From an uncultured Lachnospiraceae bacterium (GTDB lineage Bacteria > Bacillota > Clostridia > Lachnospirales > Lachnospiraceae), in contig CASUON010000003.1 in NCBI GenBank assembly GCA_949457475.1, positions 1 to 35,580 of the forward strand: DNA of 35,580 nt. The letters run 5' to 3'. Numbering within the stretch: position 1 is the stretch's first letter; each line of letters starts with the position of its first letter. The notes beneath the pieces were generated by a model, which worked only from the letters and a program-made list of their open reading frames with translations, had not been told where the DNA came from and did not search any database. Made by a program: the position numbers and the translations under genes. Of the stretch, positions 2,249-35,580 are shown piece by piece.

Positions 2249-2321
2249 TAGATAGCTACGAAATTCAATTACCCTGTTTTATCAAAACAAAATCAACAGG
2301 AGTAAAAAAAGGAGGAGAAAG

Positions 2322-4211
2322 ATGAGAAAGAATTTCATGAAAAAAGCGGTTGCAGTCACTTTGTCTGCTGCTATGGCATTTTCATTGTCTGCAGTAACTA
2401 ATCCTACGACTGCATCCGCTGCAACAGTAGGATTGAATGCAAAGAAAAAGACAATAACTGTTGGTAAGAAATTTACTCTGAAGCTCAACAAAGCGGGTCA
2501 GAAAAATTGGAAAATTACCAAAGCAGTGTCTGCAAAACCTAAGGTTGTAAAGGTTAACAAAAAGACAAAGAAAAATGTAGTTGTAAAAGGATTGAAAAAA
2601 GGCAAATCCAAAGTTACAGTTACATTAAAGAGGAAGAATGGAAAAGCCGGCACAAAGAAGCTGACATGTACATTTACTGTAAAGAAGAAAACTCCAACAG
2701 ATCCAACGGCGCCTACAACACCTACGGCTCCAACAGATCCTACAACACCTACAACGCCGGTTCAGACAGAGGATAAGGCAACCACACAAGAAGAGTTGAT
2801 TGCAAAATTAGCGAATAAAGATCTTACAAAATTAACTCTGGAAACAGAAGCAGAAAAGATCGATATTCCAGCAGGAACATATTCAAACCTTACATTAGTA
2901 GTTAACGCTCCAAACGCTGAAGTTACAAACGAAGCAGTCTTCAAAGATATTGAGATCCAGGCAATCAAGGCTGATACATGGTTTGAAAAAGCAGCAAGCG
3001 CACTTGGCAGCAACAAGATTGTAATTAAAGCTCCAAAAGCACGCTTGGTAATTGACGCTATTGCAAAATTAGCGAAATTAAAATTAGACCAGAACGGCGC
3101 TGCAGCAGATAAGGTTATGAAATTGGAAGTTCAGGGTTCCTTAGATAACGTTGAAGTGAACGCTAGCACAAATCTTAACGTAGACGTACAGGGTACTGGC
3201 GAAGTATCCCAGATGGATGTACTTGCTGGTTCTGACATCAAGATCAACGGCGGGGCAACTGCAAAAGCAATTAAAGTAAACGTAGCAGCAACAGCAGCAG
3301 CTACAAACTTAACATCTGACGTTAAGACAGAACTTACATTAAGCGCAGTAGTAAACGTTACATTTACAGCAGGCGCTGCAGGAAGTAGTGTAAAAGCAAA
3401 CAAAGAAGTAGAAGGCAAAGAGCTGGTAATTAAGAACCAGACAGGGGCAAACATTGATTTAATTAGCTCAAATGGTTCCAAGACACCAATTGCTAATAAC
3501 AATGGCGATGGAAAAGTTACACCTCCAGTAATTCAGGATACAACAAATCCTACAACACCAAGCAAGCCGAACTTTGATCAGAATGGTAGTGACAATAACG
3601 ACAATACTACAAGCGAATCTGTTACAATTACGGTTGATGGTGTGAAGGCAAAAGGACATTTAACTGGTAGTGCAACTAAAGAAGCTGATGTACCAACAGG
3701 TTCAGCACTTGATGATACAAATAAAGATAGTTTTCCTTACACATATACTGTATCAGGAGGAGCTCTTGGTGAATTAACTTTAAGTGGTATTAAGCCAAAT
3801 GTAACAAGTGGTTGTGTAATGAAAATTGATGTTGCATATACAATAGCAAATAAAACATATCAGAAATCAGTTTTAACGAATGGTGGAAGTCCAACATGTA
3901 TTACAGGTACTTCTTCAGAGGATGTTGAAAAGCTAATCGATAAAATGGAATCTGGTACAATTGGCGATATTACTATAGCCTTAACTGATCCAATCAGTGG
4001 TTCTTTTGTTGGAAAAAGAAAAGAGGCTGATTTAAAAGTATCTGTCAGTGTTCAGTGTACAGTTGTTAAAGTTGGCAAGAAAGTTGTAAAATCTAGCAGC
4101 AGAAATGATGTATTTATTAAGGGTAATCAAACTATAACATTAGATTCAGGTGATGCAACTACAGGAACAACATCTATTGATACAAATTTAAGTATTGACT
4201 TAAAAAAATAA
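2322..4211 (+). CDS. Secreted Big2-like/repeat surface protein
   Basis: A 629-residue protein with a clear Sec signal peptide: a basic start, a hydrophobic run AVTLSAAMAFSLSAV and a likely cut after ASA at residue 33. Residues about 35-122 are a very lysine-rich, Big2-like beta domain (VGKKFTLKLN... VVVKGLKKGKSKVTVTLK). A Pro/Thr linker follows (about 124-148). A long Ala/Lys/Val/Asn region (about 150-395) with alternating short strands then suggests a beta-helix-like rod. A second Pro/Asn linker leads to a C-terminal beta-rich domain (about 435-629). There is no LPXTG motif, transmembrane anchor or SLH/choline repeat, so attachment is probably through the basic N-terminal domain, or the protein is released. 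Codon use in the last third is more AT-rich than in the first two thirds. It is monocistronic between its promoter and a 17-bp-stem terminator. The exact role is unknown; envelope or adhesion is an inference. Confidence 0.8.
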   Translation: MRKNFMKKAVAVTLSAAMAFSLSAVTNPTTASAATVGLNAKKKTITVGKKFTLKLNKAGQKNWKITKAVSAKPKVVKVNKKTKKNVVVKGLKKGKSKVTVTLKRKNGKAGTKKLTCTFTVKKKTPTDPTAPTTPTAPTDPTTPTTPVQTEDKATTQEELIAKLANKDLTKLTLETEAEKIDIPAGTYSNLTLVVNAPNAEVTNEAVFKDIEIQAIKADTWFEKAASALGSNKIVIKAPKARLVIDAIAKLAKLKLDQNGAAADKVMKLEVQGSLDNVEVNASTNLNVDVQGTGEVSQMDVLAGSDIKINGGATAKAIKVNVAATAAATNLTSDVKTELTLSAVVNVTFTAGAAGSSVKANKEVEGKELVIKNQTGANIDLISSNGSKTPIANNNGDGKVTPPVIQDTTNPTTPSKPNFDQNGSDNNDNTTSESVTITVDGVKAKGHLTGSATKEADVPTGSALDDTNKDSFPYTYTVSGGALGELTLSGIKPNVTSGCVMKIDVAYTIANKTYQKSVLTNGGSPTCITGTSSEDVEKLIDKMESGTIGDITIALTDPISGSFVGKRKEADLKVSVSVQCTVVKVGKKVVKSSSRNDVFIKGNQTITLDSGDATTGTTSIDTNLSIDLKK

Positions 4212-25578: not shown

Positions 25579-26097
25579 ATTGAAGGATTAAACGCAGATA
25601 TTTACACAGTCAGCCTGTTATGCCTGTTGCTTACGGCAGCGTGGATGGATATACAGACTGGAAAGATCAGCAACCAGTTGATTGTTTTTGGATTATGGAT
25701 GGGGTATATTCGCAATCTTGCAGAATATGGCTGGAATGGGAGTTTTTATTTTCTAATCCGTATTTTTGTTCCAATTCTTTTCTTTTATCTATTGTTTCTT
25801 ATGCATGCGCTTGGCGCAGGCGATATCAAATTGTTTTCCGTTATAAGCAGTTGTATTGGGATTCACAGCTTGTTAAAAGTAATTACATTTTCTTTTTTGG
25901 CAGGGGCGGTACTTTCTCTTCTTATTCTACTGCACAATAAAAATCTTTTTACACGTCTGTCCTATTTTTTTCATTATTGTAAAATAATTCTTATTACAAA
26001 AACCATAGTAAAATATGATTATCAATCTGACGGAAAGCAGAACCTGATACATTTTTCAGTAGCAATATTAATTGGCTATTGTTTAGGAGGTGCATAA
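25579..26097 (+). CDS. A24 prepilin peptidase (TadV/CpaA type), ATT start
   Basis: The listed ORF begins at TTG 25627 inside the first membrane helix with no ribosome binding site. Extending upstream in frame gives ATT GAA GGA TTA AAC at 25579, six bases after AGGGGGGA (25566-25573). It restores a full first helix (DIYTVSLLCLLLTAAWMDIQTGKISN). The 172-residue protein then has the two aspartates of type IV prepilin peptidases: WMDIQTGKISN and GAGDIKLFS (the GxGD motif). Several further membrane helices follow. It cuts prepilin signal peptides at the membrane; Flp and the TadE-like proteins downstream are the expected substrates. It lacks the N-terminal methyltransferase domain, as usual for TadV. 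The TadZ gene starts directly at its stop codon. Confidence 0.85.
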   Translation: MEGLNADIYTVSLLCLLLTAAWMDIQTGKISNQLIVFGLWMGYIRNLAEYGWNGSFYFLIRIFVPILFFYLLFLMHALGAGDIKLFSVISSCIGIHSLLKVITFSFLAGAVLSLLILLHNKNLFTRLSYFFHYCKIILITKTIVKYDYQSDGKQNLIHFSVAILIGYCLGGA

Positions 26098-27162: not shown

Positions 27163-28374
27163 ATGACACAGGAAATGGAACGGCTGCGCCAGTTTATTCT
27201 GACACGGTTGGATTTGACAAGGGAAACGAGCGATGAAGAACTTGCGGAACTGATTTACCGCGAAGTAGGAAGTTACAGCAGGCAGCAGGGCATGTCTTTA
27301 AAGCGCAGGGAACAATTTGAGAAAGAGATTTTTCATTCCCTGCGCAAACTAGACGCGTTGCAGGAGTTAGTTGACGACCCGGAAGTTACGGAGATAATGG
27401 TCAATGGGGCCGCGCATATATTTTATGAAAAAAAGGGGCGCGTATGCCAGTGGGACAGGCAGTTTTATTCCAAAGAGAAGTTGGAAGACGTCATACAGCA
27501 AATTGTCGCAGCCGGAAATAAAATGGTAAATGAAGCAAACCCGATTGTAGATACCAGGCTAAAGGACGGCTCGCGTGTAAATATTGTACTTGCCCCGATT
27601 TCAATCGATGGGTCTGCGATTACAATCCGAAAATTTCCCAAAGACCCAATGACTATGGGGCAGCTTATTCAAATTGGGGCAATTTCTGCACAAGCTGCGG
27701 ACTTTTTAAAGCAGACGGTACGGGCAGGTTACAATATTTTTGTGTCCGGCGGGACGGGCGCTGGAAAGACCACATTTTTAAATGCTTTATCAGAGTTTAT
27801 CCCGTGCGATGAACGATTGATTACAATTGAAGACTCCGCCGAATTGCAGATTCGGTCGGTGCCGAATCTAATCCGCTTGGAAACACGTACTTCGCATATG
27901 GCAGGCGTGCGGGAAATTTCAATCCGCGACCTAATCCGCTCGTCATTGCGTATGCGCCCAGATCGAATTATTGTGGGCGAGTGCCGGGGCGCTGAAGCTC
28001 TAGATATGCTACAGGCTATGAACACCGGACATGACGGTAGCCTAAGTACCGGGCATGCAAATTCCAGCAGCGACATGTTAAAGCGTTTGGAGACGATGGT
28101 ACTGATGGGGATGGAACTGCCGGTTGCGGCAATCCGTGGCCAGATTGCTTCGGGAATTGATTTGCTGGTGCATTTGGGCAGAATGCGCGACCGTTCCAGG
28201 AAAGTACTAACGATCGATGAAATCGATGGAATGGAAGAAGAGGAAATACAAATACATTCTATTTACCGGTTTGTCGAACAGGGGCAGGGAAAACAGGAAG
28301 GAAGGATTAGCGGGTCATGGGAAAAAGTGGGAGAACTCCGAAATACCGCAAAACTCAAAAGGGCGGGAATTTAA
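27163..28374 (+). CDS. tadA: TadA/CpaF-type secretion ATPase
   Basis: A 403-residue type II/IV secretion ATPase, ATG after AGAGGGA. An N-terminal helical region leads to the core: DDPEVTEIMVNGAAHIFYEKKGR (~68-90), VDTRLKDGSRVNIVLAPIS and the Walker A VSGGTGAGKTTFLNAL (~193-208). The Asp box ITIEDSAELQI, the Walker B RPDRIIVGECRGAEALDML and the His box NTGHDGSLSTGHANSS follow. All catalytic motifs are intact. It should form the cytoplasmic hexamer powering Flp pilus assembly. The C-terminal ~30 residues are polar and end where tadB begins (TAATG overlap). Confidence 0.95.
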   Translation: MTQEMERLRQFILTRLDLTRETSDEELAELIYREVGSYSRQQGMSLKRREQFEKEIFHSLRKLDALQELVDDPEVTEIMVNGAAHIFYEKKGRVCQWDRQFYSKEKLEDVIQQIVAAGNKMVNEANPIVDTRLKDGSRVNIVLAPISIDGSAITIRKFPKDPMTMGQLIQIGAISAQAADFLKQTVRAGYNIFVSGGTGAGKTTFLNALSEFIPCDERLITIEDSAELQIRSVPNLIRLETRTSHMAGVREISIRDLIRSSLRMRPDRIIVGECRGAEALDMLQAMNTGHDGSLSTGHANSSSDMLKRLETMVLMGMELPVAAIRGQIASGIDLLVHLGRMRDRSRKVLTIDEIDGMEEEEIQIHSIYRFVEQGQGKQEGRISGSWEKVGELRNTAKLKRAGI

Positions 28375-29141
28375 TGCAAAGCCATGGGCAGGCGCAAAAC
28401 AAGACGGACTATCGGAATTATCAATTTACCAGGAATGAACGGATACGCATGTTTGCGGAATTTTTTATAATAAGCGGTGGATTTGCGTATTTGTTTTACC
28501 GTTCCTGGATGGTTATGGCGACGCTTTGGGTTTTCTATCCAATATACCGTAAACGGAAGAAAAAGCATATGATCCGTATCCGCCAGGATGAACTGTGCCG
28601 GGAATTTAAAGATAGTATCCAGTGTGTCGCTTCGTCTATGGCAGCGGGGTATTCCATTGAAAACGCGTTTCGGGAAGCATATGCTGAAATTAAGATACAG
28701 TACGGCGAACATGCCTGGATGGCTAAGGAACTGTATTATATAAAAAGCTGCCTGTCATTGAATATTCCGTTAGAACAGCTTTTATATGATTTTGCAAATC
28801 GTAGCGGGCTAGAAGACGTACGCAGCTTTTGTGAAGTATTTGTATTTGCAAAACGTAGCGGAGGGGATTTTATACAGATTATCCGTTTAACTGTTACAAG
28901 GATTGCAGAAAAAAATGAGCTTTTAGAAACCATCCAGACGGAGATTTCTGGAAAGAAAATGGAGCAGAAAATAATGAATGGCATGCCGCTTTTTATTCTG
29001 CTGTATGTAGACGTTTCTTTCGGCGGCTACTTGGATGGCATGTACCATAATGTATTTGGAATCCTTGTAATGACGGCCTGTTTGATGTTTTATCTGGCAG
29101 CCTTTCTGTTGTCAGAAAAGATTATGCATATACAAGTTTAG
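28374..29141 (+). CDS. TadB-like type II secretion F-domain protein
   Basis: The start at 28374 overlaps the tadA stop (TAATG) and follows GGGCGGGA. The listed start at 28317 lies inside tadA. The 255-residue membrane protein has an N-terminal hydrophobic pair (FAEFFIISGGFAYLFYRSWMVMATLWVFYPIY). A cytoplasmic T2SSF domain follows (EFKDSIQCVASSMAAGYSIENAFREAY, SGLEDVRSFCEVFVFAKRSGGDFIQIIR), then two C-terminal helices. TadB forms the inner-membrane platform with TadC and contacts the TadA ATPase. Confidence 0.86.
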   Translation: MQSHGQAQNKTDYRNYQFTRNERIRMFAEFFIISGGFAYLFYRSWMVMATLWVFYPIYRKRKKKHMIRIRQDELCREFKDSIQCVASSMAAGYSIENAFREAYAEIKIQYGEHAWMAKELYYIKSCLSLNIPLEQLLYDFANRSGLEDVRSFCEVFVFAKRSGGDFIQIIRLTVTRIAEKNELLETIQTEISGKKMEQKIMNGMPLFILLYVDVSFGGYLDGMYHNVFGILVMTACLMFYLAAFLLSEKIMHIQV

Positions 29142-29156
29142 AAAATGGAGGATGCG

Positions 29157-30458
29157 ATGACCGGGAAAATTACATGCCTGGCTTTTATGGCAGGCAGCCT
29201 GCTCGCTTGGATATGGTTAAAAGCCAAGAAAAAAGAAAAAAATAAACAGGATGCTTTTAAGGTTCTTGTATTAGCCGGATTTTTCGGACTTGCAATCTGT
29301 GTGTCAGAAGACAGCAGCAAACGGCTGACGGAAGATGGAAAGCTTATGAGAAATAAAGCTGGCGAAGGCTCCGACGTACAGCAGTTTGAATTAAGTGCCG
29401 ATGGCATGCTAAAAGATTATGATTATACGCTGGAAGTCGAAGAACAAAGGCTGGAAGGAAGAGCTTTATCACAAATGTTTTCAGATGCTGCCAAAGAGGC
29501 CGAACAGCAATTTATAGCAAAAAATCAGTCGTTAGACCGTATTGAAACAAATGTTGCGTTGCCCAAAAAGCTACAGAATGGGCAAATCCGCGCACAATGG
29601 CAATTCGAACCTGAATATGTGATTGACAGCGAAGGAGAGTTAAAATCCGAAGAGATAGATTCAAACGGGGAACTGGTTATGGTTTCGTTGACAATGGCTT
29701 ATTTCGATGAAGTGGAAACCCATATGTTTGGCTGCCAAGTATATCCGAAAAAAAAGGACGGCGCGGAACAATTATTAGCAGATTTGGCAGATTATTTTGA
29801 ACAAGAGCAAGAACAAAATAAACATAAGGCGTATATCAGAATGCCGCAGCAGTTAAACGGAATTATTTTACACTGGTCGCAAAAAAATGCATATACATAC
29901 CATTTTATTTTGTTCATTGGCCTTGCGGCAGCAGCTACGGTATATATTCAACAGGGGCTGCATGTACAGAAAATGGAACAGCAACGCAAAGAGAAATTAT
30001 TACGGCAATATCCGGATATGGTAAGCAAGCTGTCCCTGCTGCTTGGAGCCGGTATGACGCTGAGCGGAGCATGGGAAAGGATTGTTTTGAATTATCAAAG
30101 GCAAAAAGATATGCGCCAGACAGATACATTGGAGACTTATGAGGAAATGCTTGTATCTTACCGGGAAATGCAAGATGGTATCGGTGAATTGACCGTATAT
30201 GAGCGTTTTGGAGAACGATGTGGAACACCGCAGCACCGGAAACTTTCGATGCTTTTGGTTCAAAATCTAAGGAAAGGTTCGGACGGATTGACGCAGAGCT
30301 TGGAAAAAGAAGTGGCAGAAGCGTTTACACTTCGCAAAAACCATGCAAAAAGGGCAGGGGAAGAAGCTGGAACAAAGATATTGATCCCGATGCTGATTAT
30401 GCTTTGTATTGTTATGGTTATTATATTGGTTCCTGCGTTTTTAACGTTTCAGCTTTGA
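29157..30458 (+). CDS. TadC-like platform protein with N-terminal ectodomain
   Basis: I choose ATG 29157 because GGAGG ends five bases upstream; the ORF start at 29145 overlaps that site. The product is 433 residues. Two N-terminal hydrophobic helices (TCLAFMAGSLLAWIWL; FKVLVLAGFFGLAICV) are followed by a ~190-residue soluble, acidic, beta/alpha region with no recognised domain. A helix (HFILFIGLAAAATVYI) and then the T2SSF core come next (YPDMVSKLSLLLGAGMTLSGAWERI, FGERCGTPQHRKLSMLLVQNLRKGSDGL). The closing helix is ILIPMLIMLCIVMVIILVPAF. Usual TadC is ~300 residues, so the extra soluble region is unusual and probably extracytoplasmic. Confidence 0.82.
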   Translation: MTGKITCLAFMAGSLLAWIWLKAKKKEKNKQDAFKVLVLAGFFGLAICVSEDSSKRLTEDGKLMRNKAGEGSDVQQFELSADGMLKDYDYTLEVEEQRLEGRALSQMFSDAAKEAEQQFIAKNQSLDRIETNVALPKKLQNGQIRAQWQFEPEYVIDSEGELKSEEIDSNGELVMVSLTMAYFDEVETHMFGCQVYPKKKDGAEQLLADLADYFEQEQEQNKHKAYIRMPQQLNGIILHWSQKNAYTYHFILFIGLAAAATVYIQQGLHVQKMEQQRKEKLLRQYPDMVSKLSLLLGAGMTLSGAWERIVLNYQRQKDMRQTDTLETYEEMLVSYREMQDGIGELTVYERFGERCGTPQHRKLSMLLVQNLRKGSDGLTQSLEKEVAEAFTLRKNHAKRAGEEAGTKILIPMLIMLCIVMVIILVPAFLTFQL

Positions 30459-30526
30459 TAGTCTGCTATATTATTTTTCTATTAAAAATAATAAATTATA
30501 AATTTGAAAAGAAAGAGAGGATATTT

Positions 30527-30703
30527 ATGAATCAAATAAAAAATTTTTTAACAGAAGAAGATGGGATCGGCGTAGTGGAGCTTATATTGATACTGGTCGT
30601 ACTGATTGGGCTAGTTCTTATTTTTAAAGACAGCCTCCGTTCACTCGTAGAAACTATTTTTGAAACAATAACGCAAGGCGCAGCGGATGTATCGGCAGAT
30701 TAA
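30527..30703 (+). CDS. Flp-type major pilin (type IVb prepilin)
   Basis: A 58-residue protein, too short for the track (hidden in frame within 30218-30703). The ATG at 30527 follows AGAGAGG. The class III leader is MNQIKNFLTEEDG, with cleavage expected after Gly13. The mature protein starts IGVVELILILVVLIGLVLIF, with Glu at +5 as type IV pilins require. A short amphipathic tail follows (KDSLRSLVETIFETITQGAADVSAD). It fits the Flp1-like family and is the probable filament subunit, processed by one or both prepilin peptidases of the locus. Confidence 0.88.
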   Translation: MNQIKNFLTEEDGIGVVELILILVVLIGLVLIFKDSLRSLVETIFETITQGAADVSAD

Positions 30704-30709
30704 TAGGGT

Positions 30710-32317
30710 ATGAGAATAAGCAAAGGCAGTATTACGGTATTTATGAGCTTGCTGTTGATGATTATTGCGTCTTTGTTGTTTACACTACTGGAAGGATCGC
30801 GCTATATGATGCTTGGAATGGTGTCTGTGCTTAATAGCCAGGGTGTGACAGAATCCATGTTTGCAGAATACCATGCGCCGGCTTATGAAGATTATCATTT
30901 GTTTTTGATGGATGGAAGTTACGGGACGGGACAATTACTGTTGTCAAAGATACACGCCCGAATGCAGGAATTAGGGGAAGAAAACTTGAACCCAGTTGTA
31001 TCCGGATTCGGCACATTTACAAATTTTTTGCAGATGGATGTGATAGACAGCAGTATTGCCCGCTACGAACTTGCTACAGATAACCATGCTGCTCCATTAT
31101 TGGATCAAATGGTACAAGTGGTGAAGAAAGAAATAGCAGTTGATATATTGCAGCAGGCATATGACAAAATTTCTGGGGGCGGTGCTGGAAATGACCTTAA
31201 AAATAGCATTGAAATCGAAGAATCATGTGAAAAAGGAAAACAGGCGGATCGTTATTTGGACGGGGCGTTGGATTCGTTAGAACAGGCAAAAGAAGATATA
31301 CAAAGCCCAGATGGCAGCAGTGGACAAAAGAAGTCTATTTATAGACTGAAAAGGGGAGTAAATACGCGACAAACAATGCAAAATACCAAAGGTCATACAG
31401 ACGAGCCGCCTTGTGATAATCCCTTGGAAGATGTAAAACAGGCCAAAAGTTCACCGCTGTTATCTCAGATTCTACCCGAAGGGACGAAAATTTCTGTGAA
31501 GCAGATGTCTAAAGAAGATTCTGTAGAATATAGGGAACTAAACACTGGCAATTATGGAGCATTAGGCAAATCTCAGGTACTTGATAAAGTATTAATAACA
31601 CAATATCTAAAAAAATACACATCCAATTTTTTGAAAAAATCGGGTATACCGCATGCGCTTGCTTATGAGCAGGAATATCTTTTATTTGGAAAATATTCAG
31701 ATGAAGAAAATTTGAAGAAAATGGCAAAGCGTATGCTGCTGTTGCGGGAAGGCATTAACTTTGCCTATTTATTGGCAGACAGTGCAAAACGGGAAGAAGC
31801 GCTTGCTATGGCAACGTCGATTACCTTATTTGCAGGGATACCTGCAGCAGTTACGGCTGTGCAAATGGGGATCCTGGCTTCTTGGGCATATGCGGAAAGC
31901 ATTGCCGAGCTTAGGACTTTATTTTCGGGCGGAAAGATAGCGGTAATGAAGACAGCAGGGAGCTGGAGCATCCAGTTATCGGAAGTGGCAACCGTGTTAT
32001 TTCAAAATTCAATAAAAGCAAAAGAAGCAAATGGCGGGCAAACCTATATTGATTATCTGCAAGCTTTTCTAATTGCAGAAAGTGTAGAAAAGATAGGAGA
32101 TCGTTTTGCGAATCTACTAGAGAAAAATTTGCAGTTTCATATCGGATATGAAAATATAAAAATGGACTGCATGATTACATCGATGGAAACAAGCAATACT
32201 TACCATGCAAGACAAGTATTTTTAACATTTGTAACAATTGCGCAGTTATCGAAACAAGGATACCGTTTTGAAAAACGATATGATTTTTCCTATCGGAAAC
32301 AAAAAGATAATTCGTAA
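30710..32317 (+). CDS. DUF5702 family Tad-locus protein
   Basis: A 535-residue protein starting six bases after the pilin stop, so probably translationally coupled. The N-terminus SKGSITVFMSLLLMIIASLLFTLLEGSRYMML is a prepilin-like/TadG-like membrane helix. The remaining ~500 residues are soluble. They contain polar variable stretches (~160-260) and a hydrophobic segment near residues 365-400 (AMATSITLFAGIPAAVTAVQMGILASWAYAESIAEL). The overall pattern matches DUF5702, which I associate with Lachnospiraceae Tad loci. A minor pilin or tip/assembly role is inferred from context. Confidence 0.75.
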   Translation: MRISKGSITVFMSLLLMIIASLLFTLLEGSRYMMLGMVSVLNSQGVTESMFAEYHAPAYEDYHLFLMDGSYGTGQLLLSKIHARMQELGEENLNPVVSGFGTFTNFLQMDVIDSSIARYELATDNHAAPLLDQMVQVVKKEIAVDILQQAYDKISGGGAGNDLKNSIEIEESCEKGKQADRYLDGALDSLEQAKEDIQSPDGSSGQKKSIYRLKRGVNTRQTMQNTKGHTDEPPCDNPLEDVKQAKSSPLLSQILPEGTKISVKQMSKEDSVEYRELNTGNYGALGKSQVLDKVLITQYLKKYTSNFLKKSGIPHALAYEQEYLLFGKYSDEENLKKMAKRMLLLREGINFAYLLADSAKREEALAMATSITLFAGIPAAVTAVQMGILASWAYAESIAELRTLFSGGKIAVMKTAGSWSIQLSEVATVLFQNSIKAKEANGGQTYIDYLQAFLIAESVEKIGDRFANLLEKNLQFHIGYENIKMDCMITSMETSNTYHARQVFLTFVTIAQLSKQGYRFEKRYDFSYRKQKDNS

Positions 32318-32341: not shown

Positions 32342-33334
32342 ATGTCCCTTTGGATTATATCTAATAAGTATCAAAAAGTGCATTATCATAATAAAATATC
32401 TCTCTCAATACAGGTCATTCGTTCCTATTCTATTAAGAACAAAATTAAGAATATATTCAAGAACAGAATTATGAATAAAATCAAGAATAAAATCAAGAAC
32501 AAAATTAAATTTATGATTAGAAACTTTATGGAACTTTTTCAGAAAAACGAAGGGGCATCCCGATACGCCTGCAAAAAAGCTTCATTTACGGTAGAAGCAG
32601 CTGTTGTATTGCCATTTTATGTATGCTTTATGGTGTTTGTACTTTATTTTTTTAGGATTTTACAAGTGCAAGCGGGCGTGGCGCAATCTTTGCAGTATGC
32701 AGGACGAAGGCTGGCAGCAGAATGCTGTATAGCAGGGGAAACAAAATCGCAGGAGAAGCAGGAACTTGGCAATTTATTAAAAGCGCGGCTGTTTTTTCAA
32801 CAGGAACTAAAGAAGCAAAATTGCCCGACGCAATATATTAAAGGGGGAGCTGTAGGAATTAGTTTTGCGCAGTCTGACTTATCCGGATATTATATAGAAC
32901 TAAAGGCTGTATACCGCATGAAACTTCCGGTCAACTTACTTGGGAAGATACAGTTTCAGATTGCACAGGAATCTAAATGCAGAAAATGGACTGGCTACCA
33001 GTTGGGACAGGATTCAAACGAGGATGATAGGTGGCTGTATTATACAGAATATGGTACGGTATATCATGCGAGCAGGTCTTGCACACATTTGGATTTATCC
33101 ATCCATGGCATGCCCTATAGCCAGGTTGGAAATATACGCAACCATAGCGGTGGGAAATATCATAAATGTGAAAAATGTGGCAACGGCGTTTCCAATTATG
33201 GAATGGTGTATATTACGGATTATGGAGACCGTTATCACAGCAGCCTTACATGCAGCGGATTAAAACGAAGTATTTATATGATCCGTAGGACAAAGGCAGT
33301 AGAAAAAAGAATGTGCAAAAAATGTGGAGGTTAG
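32342..33334 (+). CDS. TadE-like pseudopilin with duplicated Cys/His module
   Basis: A 330-residue ORF with AAAGGCAGG upstream of ATG 32342. The first ~75 residues are a Lys/Asn/Ile repeat (NKIKNKIKNKIK) and may be partly untranslated; ATG 32474 is an alternative start. The TadE motif ASFTVEAAVVLPFYVCFMVFVLYFFRILQVQ (~81-111) follows, with the Glu expected at +5 of a pseudopilin. The C-terminal ~100 residues hold two copies of a metal-site-like module. Copy one is VYHASRSCTHLDLS...KYHKCEKCG and copy two is RYHSSLTCSGLKRS...EKRMCKKCGG. Each has H-x-S-x2-C, then CxxC. Tad pseudopilins do not normally carry this module. Zn binding or disulfides are inferences. The next gene overlaps its stop. 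Confidence 0.78.
   Translation: MSLWIISNKYQKVHYHNKISLSIQVIRSYSIKNKIKNIFKNRIMNKIKNKIKNKIKFMIRNFMELFQKNEGASRYACKKASFTVEAAVVLPFYVCFMVFVLYFFRILQVQAGVAQSLQYAGRRLAAECCIAGETKSQEKQELGNLLKARLFFQQELKKQNCPTQYIKGGAVGISFAQSDLSGYYIELKAVYRMKLPVNLLGKIQFQIAQESKCRKWTGYQLGQDSNEDDRWLYYTEYGTVYHASRSCTHLDLSIHGMPYSQVGNIRNHSGGKYHKCEKCGNGVSNYGMVYITDYGDRYHSSLTCSGLKRSIYMIRRTKAVEKRMCKKCGG
32431..32508 (+). repeat. AT-rich 12-15 bp slippage-type repeat
   Basis: Variants of AATAAAATCAAG / AAGAACAAAATT recur across this tract and encode the KNKIKNKIK stretch. The tract lies at the very beginning of the TadE-like ORF. Confidence 0.65.
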
Positions 33335-33335
33335 T

Positions 33336-33776
33336 ATGCAAGAGGTCATTAGCAATGTATCTGTTTTTATAATGTTCAGTATTTGCACTATAGAAGATTT
33401 AAAAAACAAAAAAATTTGTACTTGGCAGCTGTTGTGTTTTTTTATAGAAGGGGTAATTTTACGATGTGCTATATGCCGGCAGCCATTGACCGACATTTTA
33501 TTAGGCATGATCCCGGGCGTCTTGTTGTTTTTGTTCTCATTTTTGTCACGTGGAAATATTGGGATTGGAGACGGCCTTTTATTACTAGTAACGGGGATAT
33601 TTCTGGGGGTGGCTGATACTGTTCGGGTTTTTATTTATGCCATAATTTTATGTTTTGGCTTTGCATTATATTTGTATTTAATAAAGAAAAAAAGCCGGCA
33701 TTATGAAATACCGTTTGTGCCATTTATGCTCGCAGCGTTTATATGTGTGAGTATGTTGGGAGGAACAAGCCAGTAG
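33336..33776 (+). CDS. Second A24 prepilin peptidase
   Basis: ATG 33336 has GGAGG five bases upstream (33326-33330), inside the end of the preceding gene. The ORF listed from GTG 33324 would start before that site. The 146-residue membrane protein carries CTIEDLKNKKICTWQL (first Asp) and GNIGIGDGLLLLVTGIFLG (the GxGD motif), with hydrophobic helices and a basic RHYEIPFVPFMLAAF end. This is the C-terminal consensus of prepilin peptidases (G.IPF.P.l..g). It is more AT-rich and clearly divergent from the first peptidase, so it is not a recent duplicate. Confidence 0.82.
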   Translation: MQEVISNVSVFIMFSICTIEDLKNKKICTWQLLCFFIEGVILRCAICRQPLTDILLGMIPGVLLFLFSFLSRGNIGIGDGLLLLVTGIFLGVADTVRVFIYAIILCFGFALYLYLIKKKSRHYEIPFVPFMLAAFICVSMLGGTSQ

Positions 33777-33989: not shown

Positions 33990-34202
33990 ATGAAAGCAAG
34001 TTTTACAGTAGAGGCAGCAATTATAGTACCGATGATTTTATTTACAATTGCTGGGGGAATCCAAGTTGGATACGATATGTTTGAGGATGCAAAAAAGTGT
34101 ACAAAAATAGAAGAAGGGCTGGTTAAATTGGATGCGGTAAATATTGTGCGTAATAAGACCATTGTACAAGAAGCAAGCGATGTAATAAAAGGGGATAAAT
34201 AA
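33990..34202 (+). CDS. Short TadE-like pseudopilin
   Basis: A 70-residue protein: MKASFTVEAAIIVPMILFTIAGGIQVGYDMFEDAKK and a charged helical tail. It shares the KASFTVEAA(V/I)(V/I)(L/V)P start with the 330-residue protein two genes upstream, including the +5 Glu of type IVb prepilins. GGAGGGGGG lies about 11 bases upstream. A minor pilin is the best guess. Confidence 0.78.
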   Translation: MKASFTVEAAIIVPMILFTIAGGIQVGYDMFEDAKKCTKIEEGLVKLDAVNIVRNKTIVQEASDVIKGDK

Positions 34203-35473: not shown

Positions 35474-35580
35474 CAGAAGCAGATGACCATGGTATGTTTT
35501 TTTCATCTGAGTGGAAGAGAAAGCAAGAGCGTGTTTGAAAAATCATTCCCGCCATCTGCACTCCCCATTTCGCGGAGAAT
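35474..35580. other. Terminal intergenic segment
   Basis: It holds a weak hairpin GCAGATGA...TCATCTGA (35479-35510) with T residues in its loop, not a standard terminator. The last ~55 bases (from GCGTGTTTGAAAAATCATTC) look like part of an interspersed non-coding repeat; see findings. No gene is supported. Confidence 0.4.

Follow-up and report, generated by a model that had tools for sequence, protein, structure and literature searches.

Tad pili have become known chiefly for their role in adhesion. Their minor pilins, TadEFG, have been proposed to form the pilus tip and to bear the domains that define pilus function (PMC12075869). In Micrococcus luteus, where transformation is Flp-dependent, the authors preferred to place TadE/F, proteins of about 150 aa, in an accessory structure at the base of the pilus (PMC4322843). 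According to a review, no receptor has been identified for competence (com) pili (PMC6370729). Here we describe the tad operon of an uncultured Lachnospiraceae bacterium, carried by a stretch of 35,580 nucleotides (the window). One of its TadE-type proteins ends in two copies of a small module with one His and three Cys each, which, as tandem Ada-like zinc modules, would make up the exposed head at the C-terminus of a minor pseudopilin.

The tad operon and its TadE-type protein

Genes for a DUF5702 protein and a prepilin peptidase flank the TadE-type gene, and the operon also encodes CpaF, TadB, TadC, Flp, a short TadE and an FHA protein. The features are the following:

27163-28374, plus strand: CpaF/TadA ATPase, the sole PF00437 match above the cut-off in the assembly
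28317-30458, plus strand: TadB and TadC (T2SSF) genes, with T2SSF scores below the cut-off, synteny being used as well
30524-30703, plus strand: Flp major pilin (Flp1_like; Pfam PF16982, 3.2e-21) within ORF 30218-30703, start approximate
30710-32317, plus strand: DUF5702 protein with a KGSITVF N-terminus (Pfam PF18960, 2.6e-79)
32342-33334, plus strand: TadE-type minor pseudopilin of 330 aa with a C-terminal duplicated H-C-C-C module (ORF, weak TadE Pfam match, synteny with tad genes)
32582-32722, plus strand: predicted start of the mature protein and its N-terminal helix (mature residues 2-47), from the motif with Glu at +5 and the AF2 helix 2-47
32723-33034, plus strand: second helix, beta-hairpin region and linker to the modules (AF2 helix 57-78, strands 104-114 and 124-134; conserved W-x-G)
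33035-33181 (about), plus strand: module copy 1, YH-x4-C-x2-L...RN-x2-GGKY-x2-C-x2-C, with invariant putative ligands H242, C247, C276 and C279
33203-33331 (about), plus strand: module copy 2, YH-x4-CSGLKR...C-x2-C, basic, with invariant putative ligands H299, C304, C325 and C328
33336-33776, plus strand: prepilin peptidase (A24; Pfam PF01478, 1.8e-8)
33990-34202, plus strand: second, short TadE-like pseudopilin of 70 aa (Pfam TadE 0.0018, subthreshold)

Among 80 named homologous loci, several of which end before the gene in question, the same-strand neighbours include DUF5702 (79), TadC (73), TadB (71), CpaF (69) and the peptidase (69). The DUF5702 protein is a candidate TadG-like large minor subunit. 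The peptidase more likely starts at ATG 33336 than at GTG 33324 of the listed ORF, and prepilin-peptidase-like genes stand on both sides of the operon (25627-26097 and 33336-33776). An Rfam scan of the window returned three tRNAs and nothing else. Two further observations concern genome context. In one relative the CpaF gene is split, with about 14 kb of the same contig between its two parts (G003:C16:40187-40543 and 54533-55414), as if an element had been inserted into the gene. A stretch of 21 bases at 35541-35561 of the window is identical to positions 130-150 of locus L199, near a comEA-like ORF, where it seems to belong to an inverted-repeat element some 165 bases long.

By sequence and synteny, the product of 32342-33334 is a TadE-type pseudopilin of the tad operon. 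Its own score for the TadE profile (PF07811) is 0.17, below the cut-off, and 24 of 44 homologues match this profile below E 0.05 (best 1.1e-6). The N-terminus is prepilin-like (...KKA/SFTVEAAVVLPF...), with Glu at +5 followed by a hydrophobic helix in the AF2 model, and the motif points to prepilin cleavage at A/SFTVEAAVV. The leader (32342-32581), with about 80 residues up to the cleavage site, is unusually long and Lys/Asn-rich (NKIKNKIKNKIK), and translation may start at a later codon. The first-pass annotation had placed two module copies after the TadE helix: both are at that place, but they do not follow the helix directly, because a region of about 100 residues with a helix and a beta-hairpin intervenes in the AF2 model.

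We predict with high confidence that this protein is exported as a minor pilin. The prepilin peptidase of the operon would mature it, and the mature protein might then form a complex with the DUF5702 protein and the short TadE at the end of the Tad pilus. A position at the tip is plausible because of the published TadEFG tip complexes (PMC12075869), and by this analogy we regard it as the somewhat more probable placement.

The duplicated module and its relatives

The tail that holds both copies has about 100 residues and the exact pattern H-x4-C-x28-C-x2-C, link, H-x4-C-x20-C-x2-C. The twofold H...C plus CxxC pattern read from the letters at the outset is real and, given its invariance in homologues (below), far beyond chance. 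In copy 1, the codons of H242, C247, C276 and C279 start at 33065, 33080, 33167 and 33176; in copy 2, those of H299, C304, C325 and C328 start at 33236, 33251, 33314 and 33323. The copies match each other in BLASTP with an E-value of 6e-8 (35% identity across 49 residues). Copy 1 is neutral, and copy 2 has a net charge of +7 here and of +3.6 on average, the mean for single modules being +3.7. One Arg of copy 2 is invariant and one Lys nearly so in an alignment of 59 sequences. The duplication is, judging by a rough tree of the module copies built on 47 columns, old within Lachnospiraceae, since all copy 1 sequences group in a single clade (97/87), outside which the copy 2 sequences fall.

All eight His/Cys are invariant in the 80 named loci, a set chosen by similarity and which thus stops short of the most divergent members, with the spacing H-x4-C-x28-C-x2-C and H-x4-C-x20(21)-C-x2-C. 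They are equally invariant in alignments of 24, 44 and 59 sequences, and the ligands are also retained by three divergent members of the family that were inspected individually (L046, L047 and L048). Loss of the cysteines in homologues, named beforehand as the observation that would speak against the module, was thus not seen. The duplicated tail is present in 196 of 200 sampled genomes of the family, nearly always once per genome; Roseburia, Dorea, Sellimonas, Merdimonas and Eubacterium plexicaudatum are among the named relatives. The four genomes lacking a match comprise two without a good CpaF match (G076 and G192), one in which the locus is cut by the contig end (G038) and one with a module-free TadE (G005). 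In this last genome, the TadE of the tad locus (L190, G005:C67:45000-55500, about 2317-3624, minus strand) has a different ectodomain, which looks like the result of a head swap or loss.

The same module, usually single, occurs in 120 of 399 sampled genomes of the phylum (about 30%; E 0.001), and the longer two-copy profile matches 61 of 293 genomes of the class, family members included. The single-module profile matches the tail of the window protein with an E-value of 2e-16. These frequencies contradict the initial view that such a module is rare and that extracellular Cys are avoided, the more so as the 78 module proteins collected appear to be mostly secreted or lipid-anchored, with the module mostly C-terminal. 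Partner domains include MBL (16), Cu_amine_oxidN1 (12), SNase (8) and nonspecific endonuclease (NS, 2), nuclease-type domains being present in a third of the proteins (26 of 78). Further carriers are wall-associated or surface proteins with ChW, choline-binding, SH3_3 or Ig-like domains. At least six TadE-like proteins of other families have one module (L175, L179, L186, L217, L223 and L229), and two have a divergent module pair that groups apart in the tree (L049 and L051).

The five MBL module proteins that were scanned all align with the C-terminal portion of ComEC/Rec2 (TIGR00361), at E-values from 1e-51 to 7e-34; these scores fall short of the whole-protein cut-off, as expected because only part of the protein is represented. 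Such stand-alone ComEC/Rec2-type MBL proteins, apparently exported and with a C-terminal module, recur across Bacillota (L058, L063, L065, L149, L227 and L230). The genome of the window itself encodes a second module protein (L201, contig C161, 511-1743, minus strand), in which the module directly follows an apparent signal peptide. We found no family name for the C-terminal modules of the secreted Bacillota enzymes, and no description of the module in the open-licence papers searched.

The closest described domain is the N-terminal domain of Ada. Pfam Ada_Zn_binding (PF02805) is matched below E 0.05 by 12 of 26 single modules, one of them above the curated cut-off, and has no match in the window protein or its tail. 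A profile search of the PDB put four Ada N-domain chains on top (E 0.035-0.07), with the alignment mainly over the CxxC half; the tail sequence, compared directly with the PDB, had chance matches only (repeat proteins, zinc fingers). The four putative metal ligands come in the order H, C, C, C at invariant positions; Ada_Zn_binding likewise has four ligands in order with the last pair as CxxC, the first being a Cys. Structure prediction, one of the checks first suggested, gave an AF2 model with pLDDT 84-89, but Foldseek matched neither the whole model nor the tail to a solved structure at E 0.001, so that the Ada fold of the modules is not confirmed. We therefore treat "Ada-like" as a supported lead from sequence comparison. 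The conserved Cys, the Ada_Zn_binding matches of the relatives and the odd number of Cys give good support to the proposal that a Gram-positive Tad pseudopilin carries a small metal-binding module, and each module is quite likely to be a zinc site (His-Cys3).

Candidate ligands and the nature of the modules

The relation of the module to secreted DNA-cutting enzymes suggests a role for Lachnospiraceae Tad pili in handling extracellular DNA. This DNA would be the likeliest ligand, chiefly of the basic copy 2, and once captured might serve adhesion and biofilm formation, or be taken up through ComEA/ComEC. Basic modules, nuclease partners and gene content make DNA a putative ligand, which we propose tentatively. 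The explanation as a whole, i.e., a duplicated Ada-like zinc module on an exported Tad minor, probably tip, pilin that would most likely bind DNA, stands somewhat below an even chance. It is rather unlikely, in our estimate, that the Lachnospiraceae Tad pilus is a DNA-capturing competence-type filament, with a receptor made of the duplicated module that it has in common with secreted nucleases and ComEC-type MBL proteins.

To our knowledge, natural transformation has not been reported in Lachnospiraceae. The assembly of the window (93% complete) carries ComEC, with an HHH_3 ORF, probably ComEA-like, about 5 kb upstream of comEC, and CpaF is its only T2SSE ATPase above the cut-off. Of 31 relatives, ten have a single T2SSE match and most have further T2SSE ATPases. 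Co-occurrence of ComEC was considered as support for DNA uptake and set aside: it does not discriminate, because all 31 relatives have ComEC, even two that lack a good match to CpaF. With this and the additional ATPases of most relatives, the role in DNA handling is put forward here as a hypothesis that is less likely than not to hold. Two further observations count against DNA, the neutral charge of copy 1 and the presence of the module in surface proteins that are not nucleases.

Both observations fit an ordinary adhesin, in which the modules would be structural zinc folds and the ligand another pilin or a polymer on the surface of the host or of bacteria (mucin, glycan, cell wall or teichoic acid). 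The carriers with ChW, choline-binding, SH3_3 and Cu_amine_oxidN1 domains, the near-universal occurrence in a gut family and the adhesive role by which Tad pili are mostly known all agree with this possibility, which has a substantial prospect of being correct, if not an even one. It accounts less well for the share of nuclease-type domains among the module partners and for the invariant Arg and near-invariant Lys of copy 2.

Disulfides instead of a metal site are improbable. The modules would be extracytoplasmic, and for the tips of the Myxococcus Kil pilus many disulfides are predicted (PMC12075869). Yet, each module has three Cys plus an invariant His, the module is related to a known zinc domain, and 28 of the 78 module proteins lack any further Cys after residue 60; the odd number of Cys and the lack of additional Cys in those proteins lead us to favour the metal site. 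The zinc sites would stabilise a small fold that has no disulfides and suits an anoxic environment. The thioether fold proposed in the first-pass annotation was set aside, as neither the sequence nor the operon lends support to cross-links of this kind and the spacing agrees with a metal site.

Zn-Cys sites are reactive when exposed, and the host bacteria are anaerobic. The modules might therefore act as redox or metal sensors, with zinc release or Cys oxidation on the pilus signalling oxygen or oxidants. This is very improbable: the operon encodes no signalling partner that we could find except the FHA-domain protein, and the nucleases and wall proteins with the same module have no obvious sensing role. 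A chance Cys/His pattern without function is ruled out by the occurrence in 196 genomes and the invariant residues.

A near-universal, unannotated surface module in a main family of the mammalian gut points to what the Tad pili of that family touch. If DNA is the ligand, it becomes directly testable whether gut Clostridia capture DNA and transfer genes by way of Tad, with a candidate receptor on offer; if the pilus is in addition a competence filament, the DNA receptor of a Tad/Flp pilus would have been identified, and in a dominant gut family. Whether or not DNA is bound, the analysis defines a domain family for which neither Pfam nor NCBIfam has a good model: an Ada-like metal module of extracytoplasmic proteins, present in about 30% of the sampled genomes of the phylum.

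Comparison with known systems

The window protein has in common with the TadE/TadF/TadG minor pseudopilins and with the KilL/M/N tip proteins of Myxococcus a prepilin-type N-terminus, a place in a tad operon and a variable C-terminal ectodomain head. Its own head, the predicted twin metal module, is absent from the descriptions of TadE/F/G and KilL/M/N in the papers found. The Flp/Tad-dependent transformation of M. luteus offers a parallel in gene content, since in both cases ComEC and ComEA-like genes are present and Tad is the sole type IV filament seen, whereas the TadE/F proteins of M. luteus have about 150 aa and the TadE-type protein of the window 330.

The modules of the secreted SNases, endonucleases and ComEC/Rec2-type MBL proteins of Bacillota (H-x3/4-C...C-x2-C, C-terminal) are clearly homologous to the copies in the window. 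They are single, mostly with x22 spacing, and sit on enzymes, whereas those of the window are duplicated and sit on a pilin. In the N-terminal domain of Ada (PF02805; PDB 1adn, 1zgw, 1u8b and 1wpk), the order of the ligands is alike, with C-x3-C...C-x2-C compared with H-x3/4-C...C-x2-C in the window-type module. The His of the latter stands in place of the first Cys of the Ada domain, which we take to be the methyl-accepting one. The modules described here further differ from Ada in being extracytoplasmic, usually C-terminal and, in the window protein, duplicated.
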